Positions 2,249-2,323 of a stretch of 59,145 bases of DNA are shown here, piece by piece. The notes beneath the pieces were generated by a model. That model saw only the letters and a program-made list of their open reading frames with translations, ran no database searches and was not told where the DNA came from. Within the stretch, counting starts at the first letter, position 1; every line of letters begins with the position of its first letter. Made by a program: the position numbers and the translations under genes. The stretch is taken from the IMG/VR virus record IMGVR_UViG_3300046660_000250, positions 1 through 59,145 of that record; one strand, given 5' to 3'. This DNA comes from a virus.

Positions 2249-2323
2249 TGCCAAACTAACCCCCTTTTTCACTTCTCTCTTAACGCGTCTTAGAAGAGAT
2301 AGAAATAGGGGGTTAGTTTGGCA
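2249..2323. repeat. 75-bp AT-rich inverted repeat, copy 1
   Basis: The two arms begin identically for 16 bases (TGCCAAACTAACCCCC) and stay largely complementary to a centre at ACGCG, so the DNA or its RNA can form a very long hairpin. A close copy in the same orientation lies at 31561-31633. Both copies are followed by CACTTTGGACC, both lie at the 3' side of a leftward gene, and both lie just upstream of family B promoter elements. With DnaA boxes 72 bases away, this copy is a candidate origin component. A terminator or a MITE-like element is also possible. Confidence 0.8.

Follow-up and report, generated by a model that had tools for sequence, protein, structure and literature searches.

Matched pairs of distant AT-rich inverted repeats as candidate replication-initiator sites in phiC31-like phages

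The stretch of DNA analyzed here (the window) is the whole of IMG/VR record IMGVR_UViG_3300046660_000250 (59,145 bases), a phiC31-like, Samy-type Streptomyces phage. A 127-bp direct repeat is present at both record ends, suggesting that the record is complete, and most genes are carried on the − strand. The nearest annotated relative is Streptomyces ambofaciens phage Samy, a temperate, phiC31-related phage (PMC11302927). Two long inverted repeats, denoted site A and site B, lie beside the integrase gene and between the repressor-like and exonuclease genes, respectively (Table 1). An Rfam 15 scan of the window brought only three tRNAs to the gathering score, and sites A and B matched no family.

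Table 1. Coordinates of sites A and B, neighboring features and the candidate initiator gene in the window.
Feature	Position	Strand	Remarks
Site A, long dyad after the integrase gene	about 2240..2332	.	folding and copy comparison; originally predicted hairpin 2249-2323 is the inner part
Site B, long dyad between the repressor-like and exonuclease genes	about 31551..31643	.	originally predicted hairpin 31561-31633 is the inner part
AT-rich core of site A	2270..2302	.	41-bp window 66% AT vs 34% in the genome; top 0.01% of windows
AT-rich core of site B	31581..31613	.	66% AT; top 0.01% of windows
Inverted pair of DnaA-box-like 9-mers beside site A	2395..2418	.	TTATCCACA at 2395-2403, TGTGGACAA at 2410-2418
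GC-rich hairpin after the integrase gene, likely an ordinary terminator	2463..2492 (approximate ends)	-	read from sequence
Serine integrase gene, upstream of site A	2529..4223	-	
P4-family primase-helicase gene, candidate initiator	17938..20457	-	
Primase winged-helix domain, resembling the P4 origin-binding domain	18025..18282 (approximate)	-	model
Exonuclease gene, downstream of site B	30637..31440	-	
Repressor-like gene, upstream of site B	31682..32452	-	60% identical to the putative immunity repressor of Samy

Sites A and B are 90% identical over 91 columns, with arms of 27 nt at A (93% complementary) and 28 nt at B (82% complementary). Folded as RNA, either strand of the sites reaches −45 to −50 kcal/mol (z −8.3 to −9.1, 0/200 shuffles as good), and folding as single-stranded DNA gives z values of −10.1 and −8.8 for the two sites. 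The two long hairpins of the original prediction are thus both present, with folding far beyond chance; their proposed extent of 73-75 bp describes the inner part correctly, but the dyads reach further out. With 2 mismatches allowed, GGGGTTAGTTTGGC has no occurrence in the record beyond A and B. The motif reported to follow each hairpin is also found, as CACTTTGGACC follows both A and B on the + strand; because most genes lie on the − strand, this motif is the upstream flank of both sites. Invariance of the outer arms held only in part, since copies found by profile carry arm changes, and we dropped that reading because the pattern searches had themselves required those letters. The contrast between the AT-rich cores and the GC-rich genome is as predicted, and across 16 genomes the cores of both copies rank in the top 0.01-0.74% of AT-rich 41-bp windows.

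The flanks of the two sites differ in their DnaA-box-like 9-mers, at least one of which lies within 200 bp of 18 of the 21 A copies vs none of the 23 B copies; beside A they often form an inverted pair, 85-100 bp upstream. As these boxes accompany A copies and not B copies, A and B are probably not equivalent, and A may be a host-assisted origin. Each hairpin had been described as flanked by a gene end and a promoter-like element. At B the element does follow on the − strand; at A the similar element has a shorter spacer. The GC-rich hairpin between the integrase gene and site A was not called by a simple terminator scan.

Several other repeated or structured elements were observed in the window. 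The promoter-like repeat family (GTTATGGGGCG...GATGTGACGC, or CGTCACAT...CCCATAAC on the coding strand) occurs at 2000, 14645, 25514, 31461 and 34252, and its Samy counterpart is CGCGTCACAT...CGACATAACC. Repeats of 21 bp with inverted symmetry (TCCGTCAGTCGTTTCACGGA type) at 8422, 10512, 12633, 29520, 33219 and 50548 are candidate repressor operators, presumably akin to the conserved inverted repeats of phiC31. Directly after site A and its promoter-like element lies a candidate phage RNA (2050-2187, approximate, − strand) with no Rfam match. It is 126-138 nt long in ten phages and forms two hairpins with a conserved apical loop, GCACUCUCCU; 12 of 30 consensus pairs are changed on both sides and 15 of 298 cells are unpaired. 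The complement of this loop, GAGGAGAG, stands before likely start codons in 7/10 sense-strand occurrences (22548, 22199, 23626, 13633, 13082, 12615 and 7241, all − strand) and 0/4 on the opposite strand, and may simply be a ribosome-binding-site consensus.

Samy has its A and B copies at the two corresponding loci, despite integrases that are only about 21% identical. Pattern searches revealed further copies in IMG/VR and Streptomyces genomes, and a covariance model built from 31 copies found two sites, never three, per relative. Both sites are held by 16 records or host genomes (window included), 25.6-32.2 kb apart; other records hold one site, some of them being short or cut. Because these records had been chosen by the element, we repeated the search on 11 records chosen by the primase alone, and found the element in 11/11 and two copies in 9/11. 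The search of related phages proposed with the original prediction therefore gave two copies at syntenic places; its counter-case, in which relatives with the same flanks lack the element, is the opposite of what was found, as relatives carry both. Pattern matches outside Streptomyces, and one further record, did not show the inner structure, and we took them to be fortuitous. A blast search of the element's flank against phages returned no match.

Among 14 Samy-type genomes, the mean identity of A to its own B is 85.9%, against 77.2% when the pairing is shuffled (p = 0.0002), and A-A or B-B comparisons between genomes give 76-77%. The closest relative of A is its own B in 6 of the 14. On these identities, shared phage ancestry would account for part of the pairing, but not for the resemblance of A to its own B over other A copies.

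Matched pairs are not confined to the Samy type. We selected published phiC31-like phages via their exonuclease homologue and compared the 400 bp preceding the exonuclease gene with the remainder of each genome; coverage of Honk, Nesbitt, Halsey, Floof, Quenya and Arroyo extended only to the right part of their genomes. A matched pair was present in 16/16 phages of Streptomyces, Arthrobacter, Microbacterium and Curtobacterium, one of them weakly (Sebastisaurus, in its second copy). The pair sequences are wholly different between phage groups; phiC31, for example, has a different inverted repeat in two copies at the same two loci. The second copy lies directly after the integrase gene in phiC31, phiBT1, TG1, Attoomi, Shaeky, Dubu, Nesbitt, Lizalica, Honk, Halsey and Floof, and the Honk copies match best in opposite orientation. 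In Eden, Quenya and Arroyo, which lack an integrase, the two members of a matched pair stand at gene borders other than these and are separated by 15-17 kb. We had at first tied the pair to the integrase, because Eden has no copy beside its exonuclease gene, and rejected this when self-comparison found the Eden pair elsewhere. In a dyad scan, the top two places went to A and B in Samy, the window, TG1, Lizalica, Honk, Halsey and Floof; in phiC31, phiBT1, Nesbitt, Dubu and Sebastisaurus, where the dyad is weak, they did not. Microbacterium phage Eden also has two more 73 bp repeats (25101-25173 and 25347-25419, 89% identical), and a related sequence in inverted orientation lies at 9851-9926.

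In most groups the arms are built of tandem 8- or 9-bp repeats (e.g. GTGACGNA), and among the 28 arms whose period is significant, it is 8 or 9 in 27. Simple repeat patterns are confined to the site arms, reading + in the left arm and − in the right, in 9 of the 11 genomes of other types tested (phiC31, phiBT1, TG1, Nesbitt, Lizalica, Floof, Halsey, Honk and Eden). Outside the arms, Arroyo gives one additional match, and the pattern for the eleventh genome, Quenya, was poorly chosen and gave 0 matches. As the patterns were composed after the sites had been seen, these counts bear on confinement and direction and not on discovery. The period is weak in the window's own (Samy) type, and the period test found none in Attoomi or Shaeky.

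An alignable primase is common to these phages. In the window it scores 247.9 bits against the P4-family model TIGR01613 (cut-off 108.7) and also matches D5_N. A model of its last 150 residues (mean pLDDT 81.8) contains a winged-helix fold that aligns with the P4 origin-binding domain 1ka8 at a middling Z of 7.1 (78 residues, 2.9 A), below RFX domains at Z 9.0 (RFX5) and 7.7; Foldseek returned no match to the C-terminal model at E 0.001. This modeled likeness supports a putative DNA-binding role for the C-terminus. The C-terminus is also the most divergent part of the primase between groups (27% mean identity vs 53% for the helicase), a pattern compatible with co-evolution with the sites and also with relaxed constraint.

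The inward-facing repeats, the AT-richest cores, the two copies and the P4-type primase, in genomes with or without an integrase, lead us to a paired-origin reading. We consider it probable (about 0.7) that A and B act in cis as paired sites for a replication initiator encoded by the phage itself, which would bind them and start replication there. This joins two options of the original prediction, paired origins and protein-binding sites, into one, favored by the conserved matched pairs, inward repeats and AT-rich cores. Through the winged-helix domain at its C-terminus, the P4-type primase-helicase would bind the arms, assemble to either side of the AT-rich core and melt it. We infer, rather than observe, how A and B share the work: they could be two origins, an origin and a second required cis site (like P4 ori and crr), or an origin and a barrier at which forks stop, shifting replication from theta to sigma (like SPP1 oriL and oriR). 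GC skew, proposed earlier as a check on origin use, changes sign in the window near A (around 0/59145) and near B (31000-33000), and also near B in Samy, but shows no turn at B in phiC31, phiBT1, TG1 and Attoomi. As the turn is not general among the phages compared, we set skew aside as origin evidence.

The sites could instead be transcription terminators or insulators, whose hairpins, possibly lacking a U-tail, would keep transcription of the lysogen-expressed repressor and integrase genes from running on into downstream lytic genes. Other phiC31 hairpins reportedly terminate without such a tail. Such a role would suit the placement of A and B, with a gene end on one side and a promoter-like element on the other along the coding strand, the strength of the RNA hairpins and, as read from sequence, the lack of another obvious terminator in the Samy-type B region. 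It would also suit the high expression of the Samy repressor gene in all conditions tested (PMC11302927). A comparison of wobble pairs expected for RNA and for DNA gave 77 G-U cells vs 38 A-C cells, which looked like RNA, but the cells are not independent, and distinct events number 13 and 12, with little to choose between them; the sites may still form a hairpin RNA. Neither hairpin is followed by a T-run, the GC-rich hairpin already stands after the integrase gene in the window, one also lies ahead of the element in phiC31, Attoomi and Shaeky, and integrase-less relatives keep the pair at gene borders away from repressor and integrase. Termination, moreover, needs neither matched copies nor the AT-richest windows of a genome, and would not suit copies that match best in opposite orientation, as in Honk. 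The absent T-run, the separate hairpin and the integrase-less relatives in particular weaken the long-terminator option of the original prediction, and we regard termination in place of replication as unlikely. It may be an added role in temperate phages.

Matched dyads with inward short repeats would suit any dimeric or multimeric DNA-binding protein, and these phages also encode HTH proteins, so that the sites might be bound by another phage protein (a regulator, a DNA-partition or a looping protein) with no role in the start of replication. The AT-richest cores and the presence of the pair in integrase-less relatives favor replication, however, and a better choice of operator would be the 21-bp inverted-repeat family, which occupies six separate positions in the window; we give this reading only a small chance. 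That a MITE-like or other mobile repeat is present twice by chance, as a long inverted repeat in two similar copies could suggest, is very improbable. A mobile repeat would vary in place and number, but two copies stand at syntenic places across many genomes, with three in none, which contradicts this option of the original prediction, and unrelated sequences occupy the same places in other groups.

The paired initiator sites proposed here resemble the origins of Bacillus phage SPP1, in which one protein, gp38, binds both oriL and oriR, and the second site is proposed to arrest replication forks and thereby set off sigma replication (PMC6316719, PMC3485210). In both cases two distant, similarly organized sites combine short repeats with an AT-rich unwinding element (PMC6316719, PMC3485210). 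The phages described here likewise carry two similar sequences at distant positions of a single genome, with short repeats beside an AT-rich element in most groups (the period being weak in the window's type). The repeats are direct in SPP1, whereas here they face each other across the core; the candidate initiator is a P4-family primase and not a gp38-type protein; and neither site lies inside the gene of this candidate.

P4 has two cis sites, ori and crr, for its alpha protein. Like these phages, it combines two sites with a primase-helicase of the same family, whose C-terminal domain (1ka8) bears a middling likeness to the one modeled here. In the phages described here, however, 15-32 kb separate the two sites, each site is a single dyad around an AT-rich core, and the genome is that of a full phage with its own DNA polymerase. 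The inverted-repeat pairs of phiC31, phiBT1 and TG1 correspond to those of the window in loci, copy number and AT-rich core and have arms of inward-facing 8-bp repeats, but their sequence is unrelated. The records of these three phages have no annotated feature under the pair, and in the part of the literature covered we found no published description of such site pairs.

As a tentative generalization, to which we give somewhat less than even odds, every phiC31-like genome would have two matched origin-type sites whose sequences change together while their layout stays, one starting theta replication and the other serving the switch to concatemers. Under this rule the sites would lie about a third to half of the genome apart, and the DNA-binding domain of the primase possibly changes with them. 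If the paired-site reading is true, phiC31, the source of a widely used integrase, and its relatives gain candidate replication origins that are testable at once. Matched distant sites with sequence turnover between groups would be a test bed for the co-evolution of initiators with their sites, and the same pairs would bear on why some phages keep two origins.
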